Assembly (NCBI GenBank): GCA_014859225.1
Contig: JACUUP010000021.1
Location: 1-16,541, forward strand
Reading direction: 5' to 3'
Source: Candidatus Aerophobota bacterium
GTDB lineage: Bacteria > Aerophobota > Aerophobia > Aerophobales > B3-G15
DNA: 16,541 nt
Positions 3,392 through 11,156 of this stretch are shown piece by piece; positions within the stretch are counted from its first letter, which is position 1, and every line of letters begins with the position of its first letter. The notes below the pieces were generated by a model, which saw only the letters and a program-made list of their open reading frames with translations, made no database searches and was not told the origin of the DNA. The position numbers and the translations under genes are program-made.

Positions 3392-4906
3392 TCAAATCTT
3401 TGTTGTAGAAAAATTGTTTAACTGCAAAATTACACTTACTGGAATGCGTGACTTTACCTTTTTTATCTTATTAATTACATCTGCAAAAGAAAAGCTAAAT
3501 TGAGAAAAAGGCGGTAGAGTTATTTTTACTACTACTTCCTCTATATTCATTTTAATCTTTTTACATTTTTGCAGGATGATTTCAATTTCTTTTTTTATTT
3601 GAGTTTTCTTATCAAGGTATATATTAAATCCCGGAGCCGCTCCCCATTTTTTTATCTGTGTTAAAATTTCTTCCTCCTGCCAGGATGAACAGGATAAAAA
3701 AACAAGCCCCTTCCCCTCTAATTCACTAAGAGCATCATAAACAAAGGAGGGTTTGTCTATTTCCATGTTGATACCAAGGTCAGTATTTTGCTGAAGAAAA
3801 TTCATAAACGAGCTAATTTTAAAATTTTGAGGTATCTTTGCAAAGTTTAAATTTAAAAAGGAGCATCCTTTTTCCTTAGCCTTATCTACCAGCTGCAAAA
3901 TTTTATCAAAATTTTCTTTCTCATTTTCCATGAGCTCTAAAGGAAAATTTATTCCTAAAAATAAGGGACTTTCTTTTTTAAAGGTATAGATTTTTTTGCG
4001 CGAAGAGAATCCTTTTAAAATAAGATGTTTTTTAACAGGGGGCGAGATATTTTTTATATTTTTAACCATGGCGGCAATATGTTCAGGCGTAGTTCCGCAA
4101 CAGCCGCCAACAATTTTAACTCCACTTTCCACAAATTTTTTTGCCCACTCCGAAAACTCTTCCGGGCCCACAGGGAAGACAGTTTTTCCTTTGACCAGGT
4201 GAGGATTTCCAGCATTGGGCTGGAAAATGAGAGGCTTGCTGGCGCAAGATACCATAGCTTTGACTACAGGAAACATCTGTTCGGGTCCAATACTGCAGTT
4301 TGCTCCTGAAACCTCTATATTTAGTGCTTCTAAAGTAAAAACCGCTGTTTCAGCATCGGTACCGGTTAAAGTTCTACCCTGCTCTCCAAAAGTTAGCTGG
4401 CAAACTACCGGCAAATCACAAACCTCTCTTGCTGCTACCACCGCTATTTTTGCCTCCTTCAAAGACATCATGGTTTCTATAACCACAATGTCAGCACCTG
4501 CCTCAGCTAAAATTTCAATTTGTTCCCTGAAAACCTCAAGTGCCTGTGAACTTGTAATCTCTCCCCAGGGCTGGACTAAATTTCCCAGTGGTCCAATGGA
4601 TGCCCCAACCAGTTGAGAATAAGCGGTTTCCTTTGCTATTTTAACAGCATGGTAGTTAATATCCTTGAGTTTTTGTGTTAAATTAAATTTATCCAGTTTA
4701 ATACGATTCGCTCCAAATGTGTTAGTTTCTATCACATCAACTCCCTGTTTTATGTAGGATAGATGTGCTGCTTTAACCTTTTGGGGAAACACCAGATTCA
4801 GTTTTTCCGGAGGTAGACCCGCTCTAAGGTAGGGCTGAAGAGAGGTTCCCATAGCTCCATCAAAAAAGATAACCCTTTTTTCCTGAAGTAGCTCTGTGAA
4901 ATTCAT
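3392..4906 (-). CDS. Homocysteine S-methyltransferase domain with degenerate methyl-folate-binding tail
   Basis: Residues 1-290 are a homocysteine-binding barrel like the N-terminal module of cobalamin-dependent methionine synthase (MetH). They show FFDGAMGTSLQ near the start and the three zinc cysteines C204 (GANCSIGP) and C269/C270 (GGCCGTTPEH). Residues 300-504 line up by eye with MetH's methyl-tetrahydrofolate barrel: SSRKK, then LFLGIN where GERINPTG is expected, SFLNLN for ILDVN, INMEID for LQIDS, a KG..FLSCSS strand, and VINKIKKVKSRIPVSVILQLNN for the strand leading to GLSNVSFGLP. The protein stops exactly there, and the pterin-binding motifs are eroded. No cobalamin-binding module is present. 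The likely role is homocysteine to methionine with an unknown methyl donor, perhaps supplied by separate subunits. The start has AGGTGA 7-8 bases upstream, and 18 bases separate it from rodA. Confidence 0.82.
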   Translation of the reverse strand: MNFTELLQEKRVIFFDGAMGTSLQPYLRAGLPPEKLNLVFPQKVKAAHLSYIKQGVDVIETNTFGANRIKLDKFNLTQKLKDINYHAVKIAKETAYSQLVGASIGPLGNLVQPWGEITSSQALEVFREQIEILAEAGADIVVIETMMSLKEAKIAVVAAREVCDLPVVCQLTFGEQGRTLTGTDAETAVFTLEALNIEVSGANCSIGPEQMFPVVKAMVSCASKPLIFQPNAGNPHLVKGKTVFPVGPEEFSEWAKKFVESGVKIVGGCCGTTPEHIAAMVKNIKNISPPVKKHLILKGFSSRKKIYTFKKESPLFLGINFPLELMENEKENFDKILQLVDKAKEKGCSFLNLNFAKIPQNFKISSFMNFLQQNTDLGINMEIDKPSFVYDALSELEGKGLVFLSCSSWQEEEILTQIKKWGAAPGFNIYLDKKTQIKKEIEIILQKCKKIKMNIEEVVVKITLPPFSQFSFSFADVINKIKKVKSRIPVSVILQLNNFSTTKI

Positions 4907-8757: not shown

Positions 8758-9222
8758 CTACGTAATCTGGGTATAGAGGTTTGCCATTTCCATAGCTGAA
8801 ATGGCGGCATCCCATCCTCTATTTCCTGCTTTTGTCCCAGCTCTCTCAATAGCTTGCTCCAGAGTATCTGTTGTGATTACACCAAATATTATGGGAATCT
8901 CTGACTGCATTGCAAGTGTGGCAATACCTCTTGAAACCTGTCCTGCAATCACTTCATAGTGGAGTGTATCTCCTTTTATAACAGCTCCCAGACAGATTAT
9001 GGCATTGAATCCACCCTTTTTCAGCATTCTGAAAGTTATTGCGGGAATCTCAAAACCCCCGGGGACCCAGGCTATTTCAATATCTTCCTCTTTTGTGCCG
9101 TGTCTTATCAGAGCATCAAGAGCACCCTCAAGTAATTTTTTAGTGATGAGTTCATTATGACGGGAAACAACTATTCCAAATTTAAGATTTTCTCCTGTAA
9201 TTTTTCCCTTATAGATGTTCAC
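8758..9222 (-). CDS. ribH: 6,7-dimethyl-8-ribityllumazine synthase
   Basis: This enzyme condenses dihydroxybutanone phosphate with 5-amino-6-ribitylaminouracil to give lumazine, the penultimate step of riboflavin synthesis. It has 154 residues, the family norm, and typically assembles into pentamers or a 60-mer capsid. RHNELIT (21-27), VPGGFEIP (53-60), [12 protein letters not shown] with H88 (79-90), and R127 in the ERAGTKAGN segment are all in place. It begins with GTG at 9222 and overlaps the end of ribBA by 14 bases. AAGGAG lies 6 bases upstream and clearly supports the GTG. Confidence 0.96.
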
Positions 9223-10453
9223 TTTTTTCTCCTTGTTCTGAACAAAGATTTAGTATGTGCCCCAATTTTTTTTGCTTAGTTTCAAGGTAAGATATATTTA
9301 GTTTGTTAGGTTTTATTTCCAGAGGTATCCTCTCTACCACCTCCAGACCATAGCCTTTCAATCCCACAATTTTTCGGGGATTGTTCGTTAGAAGTTTTAT
9401 TCTATGCAGTCCTAAATCAGCAAGTATCTGGGCTCCTATTCCGTAATCTCTCAGGTCAGGAGAAAAACCAAGCTTTTCATTTGCTTCCACCGTGTCCATT
9501 CCCTCATCCTGGAGCCGGTAAGCCCGCAGTTTATTTAAAAGACCTATGCCTCTTCCCTCCTGGTTGAGGTATAAAAGAACTCCACATCCCTTGCGCGCTA
9601 TTATACTCAAAGCAGTATCAAGTTGCTGACCACAATCACAGCGAAGGGACTTAAAAACATCTCCAGTTAAACACTGTGAGTGCACTCTCACCAAAATATC
9701 TTCTTTACCCCTCACCTTTCCTTTTACAATTGCAAGATGTACTCTATTTTCTATCAGACTTCTGTAGCCTATGAGAGTAAATTTTCCAAAGGCGGTGGGA
9801 AGAGAGGTAACGATTTCCTTTGCAATCAGCCTTTCCTTTTTCCATCTATAATTTATTACATCAGCTATGGTGCATATTTTCATTCCATGAACCCTAACAA
9901 ATTGTCTAAGTTCAGGAAGCTTTGCCACATATCCATCTTCATTTATTATTTCACAGATAACTCCTGCCGGATAAAATCCCGCAGCCCTTGCCAGATCAAC
10001 AGCTGCCTCTGGAGGTGCTGCTTTGACAAGAACTCCTCCTTCACGGGTAATAAGCGGGAAAACATGTCCTGGTTTTACCAGGTCTTCACTTTTTGTATGC
10101 GGGTCAATTATTGCTTTAATAGTTTGAGCCCGGTCATAAGCTGAGATGCCCCCGCTTATATTTTTCTTTGCATCCACGGAAATAGCAAAAATGGTTCCCT
10201 TTAAAGATGTATTTCCGTTAACCATGGGAGAAAGTCCAAGCTGTTTTGCTCTCTCAGAAGTTATAGCTACACAAACAAGACCCCGACCGTATTTGCTCAT
10301 AAAATTTATTATTTCTGGTTTGAGGCAGGAAGCCGGGATAACAAGTTCTCCTCCACTATCTTTATCTTTTTCATCAACCACAATAGCTATTTTCCCTTTT
10401 TTAAAATCCTCCAGGGCTTCCTCTACGCTCATCAAGTTATTTATATCGCTCAT
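9209..10453 (-). CDS. ribBA: RibBA: GTP cyclohydrolase II with degenerate DHBP synthase domain
   Basis: This is a 414-residue fusion. The C-terminal half (about 205-400) is a canonical GTP cyclohydrolase II, opening GTP for riboflavin synthesis: zinc cysteines C261, C272 and C274 (CLTGDVF..LRCDCG), QEGRGIGL (298-305), [10 protein letters not shown] (333-342) and LTNNPRK (355-361). The N-terminal half (1-203) keeps the fold of 3,4-dihydroxy-2-butanone-4-phosphate synthase ([19 protein letters not shown]-like, ICEIINEDG). Its catalytic signatures are changed: DDEDRENEGDL is [11 protein letters not shown] (27-37), TGIS is GGIS (101-104), and the metal-site GHTEA is APPEA (146-150). The synthase activity is therefore doubtful. 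The start is ATG 10453 with GAGG about 8 bases upstream and an in-frame stop just before it. It lies between ribE and ribH. Confidence 0.93.
9229..9234 (-). promoter_or_regulatory. Shine-Dalgarno site supporting the ribH GTG start
   Basis: AAGGAG on the minus strand, 6 bases before GTG 9222 and inside the ribBA coding end. No ATG lies in a competing position, so the GTG start is well supported. Confidence 0.75.
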
Positions 10454-10523: not shown

Positions 10524-11156
10524 TCAGTACCCTGCCATCTTCAAAAGGTCCAAATTTATCCCCTTCCTCTCTTCAGAGGTGATGATTTCTCCCACATACT
10601 TTGCCAGAATATCAACTTCCAGGTTTAAAAGGTCACCTTCTCTGTGATGGCTTAAGGTTGTGTTATTTAAAGTATGGGGTATAAGGCATACTGCAAAGGT
10701 ATCCTTTTCTTTTCTCGCCACAGCAAGACTAACTCCCTCAAGAGTTACTCTTCCCTGGGAGACAATATATTTTTTCAGGTTAAACGGGGCCCTTAGAGTT
10801 AATGTCCATTGAGAAGTTTCTCGTTTAACTTTTTCCAATCTTGCCAGACCATCTATATCTCCGGTTACAAAATGTCCTCCCAGGAAGGAGTTAGTTAGAA
10901 GAGCCCTTTCTAAATTAACTTTATCTCCAGCTTTTAGCGCCCCAAGATTCGTTTTTTGTAAGGTATGGGGCATTATCTGGACTTCAAAGCTTGTACCCTT
11001 TTTCCTGGTAACAGTAAGACAAACCCCATTTGTGCAGATACTGTCAGAAACATCAAGGGTCTGTGTTGCTTTTTCAGCTTCTATGATAAGCTGAAAAATG
11101 GGAGATGTCATCACTTTAGTAATTTTACCTATCTCCTCCACTATACCAGTGAACAT
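10524..11156 (-). CDS. ribE: Riboflavin synthase, alpha chain
   Basis: This enzyme dismutates two lumazine molecules into riboflavin and a pyrimidine that is recycled by RibH. It has 210 residues with the duplicated lumazine-binding beta-barrels: first barrel MFTGIVEEIG, NGVCLTV with C46, MPHTL, and GGHFVTGDIDG (93-103); second barrel about 104-190 with LEGVSLAVA and IPHTL. The usual GHVDG at the end of the first barrel reads GDIDG, so one conserved histidine is aspartate (D100). It begins with ATG 11156, preceded by AAGGA/AGTGA-type weak sites. Only 46 bases separate it from the E2 gene, leaving no room for an FMN riboswitch here. ribD is not in the window. Confidence 0.95.
   Translation of the reverse strand: MFTGIVEEIGKITKVMTSPIFQLIIEAEKATQTLDVSDSICTNGVCLTVTRKKGTSFEVQIMPHTLQKTNLGALKAGDKVNLERALLTNSFLGGHFVTGDIDGLARLEKVKRETSQWTLTLRAPFNLKKYIVSQGRVTLEGVSLAVARKEKDTFAVCLIPHTLNNTTLSHHREGDLLNLEVDILAKYVGEIITSEERKGINLDLLKMAGY

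Follow-up and report, generated by a model that had tools for sequence, protein, structure and literature searches.

To our knowledge, the four-carbon building block of riboflavin is made by a single known enzyme family, RibB (DHBP synthase), which works by an unusual mechanism. In bifunctional RibBA it forms one half of the protein, the other half being the GTP cyclohydrolase II, RibA. The Arabidopsis protein RIBA3, in which the DHBP synthase (DHBPS) half is changed, is active as a GTP cyclohydrolase II (GCHII) but not as a DHBPS (PMC3509567). When ribBA is deleted in S. meliloti or B. abortus, the cells stay prototrophic for riboflavin, and the authors of that work postulate an undiscovered second RibB (PMC9478397).

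The DNA analyzed here, a stretch of 16,541 nucleotides called the window below, makes up contig 55 of a Candidatus Aerophobetes metagenome-assembled genome (MAG) of 1.8 Mb in 273 contigs that is 91% complete. The nearest relatives in the databases are likewise Candidatus Aerophobetes. This genome, G000, belongs to a set of 17 Aerophobetes genomes (G000–G016), and its family is sampled by three of them: G000 itself, G001, a member of another genus that comes from a separate assembly and is 82% complete, and G002. The minus strand of the window carries, in order, genes for an E2 acyltransferase, ribE, ribBA, ribH, prmC, mrdA and rodA (Table 1). This order is mostly kept at the Aerophobetes loci that we compared, and hence nothing points to a chimeric contig. 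The ribBA reading frame is uninterrupted from 10453 to 9209, and this open frame, together with the conserved synteny and substitutions that also occur in an independent MAG, rules out an assembly or frameshift artefact. Elsewhere in the window, positions 3392-4906 encode a 504-aa protein whose N-terminal start resembles, by eye, the homocysteine methyltransferase part of MetH.

Table 1. Features of the riboflavin gene cluster in the window
Feature	Position	Strand	Description
ribBA	9209..10453	-	414 aa; RibB half with replaced catalytic residues fused to intact RibA half
DHBP synthase-like domain, Pfam PF00926	9848..10423	-	236-238 bits, full length; probably catalytically disabled
KDSGGE replacing RENEGD, metal and substrate loop	10346..10363	-	codons 31-36
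GGIS replacing TGIS	10142..10153	-	codons 101-104
APPEA replacing GHTEA	10004..10018	-	codons 146-150; metal-ligand His and adjacent Thr both Pro; Arg144 to Lys
GTP cyclohydrolase II domain, PF00925	9323..9811	-	zinc cysteines C261, C272, C274 and QEGRGIG retained
ribH, lumazine synthase	8758..9222	-	Phe22-equivalent is His (SRHN); VIKG for VIRG
ribE, riboflavin synthase	10524..11156	-	two lumazine-binding domains, intact

Catalytic residues of the two halves

The original prediction concerned positions 9840-10453, which are the N-terminal half of the window RibBA, and held that this DHBP synthase half is apparently dead; it offered two ways to account for this, a further source of DHBP in the genome or a structural or regulatory role for the domain. 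Both Pfam domains are matched near their full profile within the one chain (DHBP_synthase at 236 bits and GTP_cyclohydro2 at 249 bits), and the DHBP synthase motifs RENEGD, TTGIS and GHTEA are absent from the protein. Residues 31-36 read KDSGGE where RENEGD is found elsewhere, residues 98-104 read NISGGIS, with SGGIS at 100-104 where TTGIS is usual, and residues 144-150 read KAAPPEA, the counterpart of RAGHTEA. An alignment with 125 other RibBA proteins bears the prediction out: the window protein is altered at 14 columns of the RibB half that are at least 90% conserved, most of them in the catalytic motifs, as against a single such column in the RibA half. The second Glu of RENEGD, which is invariant in all 125 of the other proteins, is Gly in the window. 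Of the columns conserved among the other Aerophobetes, the window protein departs at 22 of 102 in its RibB half and at 5 of 124 in its RibA half (Fisher p = 6e-5). The corresponding counts for G001 are 16 of 102 and 3 of 124 (p = 4e-4), and the same comparison reached significance in none of nine other lineages or pairs.

Mutants of the V. cholerae enzyme at Glu39, Glu41 or His154 lose activity, and in the M. jannaschii enzyme a Thr-to-Ser change at the site equivalent to Thr108 abolishes it (PMC5228156). The equivalents of the three V. cholerae residues in the window are Asp, Gly and Pro, and the Thr108-equivalent is Gly. The window RibB half retains D27, D107, Arg108, His130, E149 and Glu168, as well as Cys61, and four of its replacements keep charge (R31K, E32D, D36E and R144K). 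All of these retained residues apart from Cys61 would suit a RibB half that still makes DHBP slowly at an altered metal site, where D32 and E36 might in principle serve as metal ligands. We nonetheless regard such an enzyme as extremely improbable, given that each of the three V. cholerae residues is needed and that a change as small as Thr to Ser is already too much at the position that is now Gly. The replacements strongly indicate that the window RibB half is catalytically inactive, and the charge-keeping changes, along with the several ligands kept in G001, mean that some residual or altered RibB activity may persist.

The RibA half had been described as fully canonical, which holds for the three zinc cysteines and for QEGRGIG, all as in other Aerophobetes, and fails for two further motifs, where HSQC and LYLNQEGR stand in place of HSEC and LYMRQEGR, as in nearly all Aerophobetes. 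With its DHBPS residues lost and its GCHII residues kept, the window protein shows the RIBA3-type pattern, and we infer from these residues that its RibA half works. The two motif variants extend across the phylum: nearly all Aerophobetes GTP cyclohydrolase II sequences have HSQC (HSRC in G015 and G016), with HSEC in most of the bacteria compared, and all examined Aerophobetes have LYLNQEGR (beginning VYLN in G008), with LYMRQEGR in most of the bacteria compared.

Timing of the loss and selection on the fold

The RibBA of G001 has a partly disabled site, reading KNSEGD, TTTGAS and AAHAEA, and has K31, S33, K144, A146 and V176 in common with the window protein. The RibBA of G002 and of the other Aerophobetes examined is canonical, save for AAHTEA in G006. 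In the RibBA tree, G000 and G001 are united with 100% support and are joined next by G002 with 93%. Along the branch shared by G000 and G001, the length is 0.152 for the RibB half (bootstrap 95% 0.08-0.24) and 0.024 for the RibA half (0-0.07). The rate of the RibB half was thus roughly sixfold that of the RibA half, and its branch was the longer in 100 of 100 bootstraps. On the terminal branches there is no clear difference between the halves. Expressed as a share of tree length, the shared branch amounts to 5.8% in the RibB half against 0.9% in the RibA half, with 1-1.4% in RibH and RibE and 3.6% in RibD, the last from seven genomes only. From these comparisons, the disabled RibB is a lineage trait that was acquired in steps and is carried by two genomes only.

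For the RibB half, comparison of G000 with G001 gives a pairwise dN/dS of about 0.13, with synonymous sites near saturation. This value and the ordinary rates after the split indicate that the RibB fold is still under selection; according to the original prediction, purifying selection on the rest of the domain would favour a retained function. Thus, in the RibB half, selection on catalysis appears to have been lost and selection on the fold to have persisted. A full-length AlphaFold2 model of the window RibBA is confident (mean pLDDT 86), lies within an RMSD of 1.4-2.1 Å of E. coli RibB and finds its best structural match in M. tuberculosis RibBA (4i14, 42% identity). The predicted fold is weak support for a retained one, since the input alignment consists mostly of active homologues.

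Rapid change on a single branch, with constraint returning afterwards, is also the pattern expected of a change of function, and the RibB half might have taken on a new role, either with another sugar phosphate as its substrate or as a metabolite sensor that regulates the RibA half. The four charge-preserving replacements are consistent with such a role, as is the finding that the E. coli RibB single mutants G108S and D113G yield DXP in vivo (PMC3424233). However, the two genera have no common set of new residues (KDSGGE/APPEA versus KNSEGD/AHAEA), and the DXP version fails for want of a full-length DXS-like gene or a DXR in G000, G001 and G002. We therefore consider a new role very unlikely. 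A DXP-making RibB that feeds isoprenoid synthesis is accordingly not supported: neither DXS nor DXR (PF02670) was detected in the three genomes of the family, even in G002, whose RibB is intact, and without DXR the DXP would lack an MEP pathway to enter. Across G000-G016, most genomes, that of the window among them, are without DXS and DXR and five have both, which suggests that the MEP isoprenoid pathway may have been lost or replaced within Aerophobetes.

We prefer a reading in which the RibB half lost its catalytic role in the common ancestor of the two genera. In the window lineage the loss would then have gone further, with every metal ligand of the acidic loop and the His ligand replaced and the distal Glu168 left in place. 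Selection and the fold prediction suggest that the RibB domain may be retained as a folded scaffold, probably one that forms dimers, for a working GTP cyclohydrolase II half.

Riboflavin genes and the supply of the four-carbon unit

Other riboflavin genes are kept in both genomes: G000 has ribD, ribH, ribE and ribF, and G001 has ribD, ribH and ribE, with ribF not found in this 82% complete genome. In alignments, the reading frames of ribD, ribH and ribE are open in both, and their sequences are well conserved. A search for a standalone ribB, proposed along with the original prediction, turned up no other RibB homologue in G000; PF00926 has a single match in each of G000 and G001, in MAGs that are 91% and 82% complete. 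Likewise, we found no functional paralogue that could supply DHBP, as in the RIBA3 type, in these two incomplete genomes, and no second GTP cyclohydrolase gene in G000, where PF00925 matches one gene. None of the other Aerophobetes genomes has a second intact PF00926 gene; in G004, two partial matches are found at the ends of contigs and could be the pieces of one split gene. In another bacterium, G024, we observed two RibBA-like genes (G024:C2:404859-410389 and G024:C2:281393-286959). One member of the pair is very degenerate in its RibB half, with RENEGD and GHTEA unrecognizable, and the other has no TTGIS segment and reads GTVFPL in place of GHVFPL.

The main rival to our reading is that a functional standalone ribB, for example one acquired horizontally, lies elsewhere in these genomes and has been lost from both bins, making the RibB half redundant. 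The incompleteness of the two MAGs leaves room for such a gene, newly acquired genes may often escape binning, and Arabidopsis keeps an active RIBA1 alongside RIBA3 (PMC3509567). Set against this are the single PF00926 match in each genome and the want of a second intact gene across the other Aerophobetes. A gene would be missing from both bins with a chance of about 0.09 x 0.18 = 2% if the two omissions are independent, and with a higher one if it sits on a poorly binned element. On balance, we judge a missed ribB unlikely.

It is also conceivable that the lineage has abandoned de novo synthesis and takes up riboflavin or a precursor, with early decay so far reaching the RibB half only. The stepwise loss of catalytic residues across two genera fits this account, and RibH is altered as well, at its Phe22 position. 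Scavenging is nonetheless less likely because the other riboflavin genes are maintained: ribD, ribH and ribE have open, well-conserved reading frames, RibH and RibE show ordinary rates on the shared branch, the RibA half is nearly unchanged, and the RibB half itself has been under purifying selection since the split. In addition, we found no ECF-type substrate component (PF12822) that would mark a riboflavin transporter, a search that speaks to ECF-type transporters only, and no FMN riboswitch in any of the 17 Aerophobetes genomes, despite their conserved rib cluster. Taken together, we hold uptake with decay to be quite unlikely. A BrbF-like creatininase-family formamidase, which might have marked a Rhizobiales-type branch, is present in G000, absent from G001 and also found in relatives with an intact RibB, and is not diagnostic.

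The altered RibH residue occupies the position that we take to be Phe22, with B. subtilis RibH as the ruler. It is His in both G000 and G001 and in none of the other RibH proteins checked (about 100). Among ribH genes beside other ribBA genes, the column holds Phe 99 times, Tyr three times and His twice. G001, counted two times, accounts for both His entries, and G002 and G006 account for the three with Tyr. His88 and Arg127 are retained. In B. subtilis, Phe22 is among the three residues singled out as important for catalysis by lumazine synthase (PMC12871164). The co-occurrence of this His with a disabled RibB falls on a single branch and could be due to chance.

Returning to the reading that we prefer, we give about an even chance to a live RibA half joined to a dead but maintained RibB scaffold, with riboflavin made using a four-carbon unit from a source other than RibB. 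Riboflavin would still be made by RibA, RibD, RibH and RibE, and the four-carbon unit would come from a candidate source without recognizable homology to RibB, in the same genome pair in which RibH is altered at its pyrimidine-stacking residue. The two-genus lineage thus probably obtains DHBP by an unrecognized route. A doubtful and more far-reaching version, which we advance tentatively, dispenses with every RibB-family enzyme: an unrelated enzyme or chemistry would provide the four-carbon unit, and RibH, through the change of Phe22 to His, would have adapted to it.

Relation to known RibBA proteins

The window protein resembles bifunctional RibBA proteins such as M. tuberculosis RibA2 (4i14) in its domain order, its full length and its RibA residues, and its gene stands in an operon with ribE and ribH as in its relatives. 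It differs from them in the replacement of RENEGD, TTGIS and GHTEA, from which the RibB half should be inactive. Like RibBX of A. baumannii (6mnz), it is a two-domain RibBA relative in which one half does not work as the original enzyme. RibBX is its mirror image, with RibB kept and the RibA half degenerate, and the RibA part of 6mnz aligns poorly.

The likeness to plant RIBA3 lies in the inactive DHBPS half. The GCHII half of AtRIBA3 is known to work (PMC3509567), and that of the window protein is expected to do so from its residues. Whereas plants keep an active RIBA1, the window genome has one RibBA and no other RibB homologue, and its case is of separate, bacterial origin. In the open-access literature we found no natural lineage that combines a single disabled RibBA with an otherwise intact pathway. 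Such a lineage makes it possible to test directly whether holding RibA is all that the RibB fold is needed for. As in S. meliloti and Brucella (PMC9478397), riboflavin synthesis appears to proceed without a recognizable second DHBP synthase; there, however, RibBA is presumed active and the evidence comes from deletion mutants, whereas the window presents a naturally disabled enzyme. With the RibB active site removed and every other step kept, this lineage is a natural place to seek the postulated second source of the four-carbon unit.
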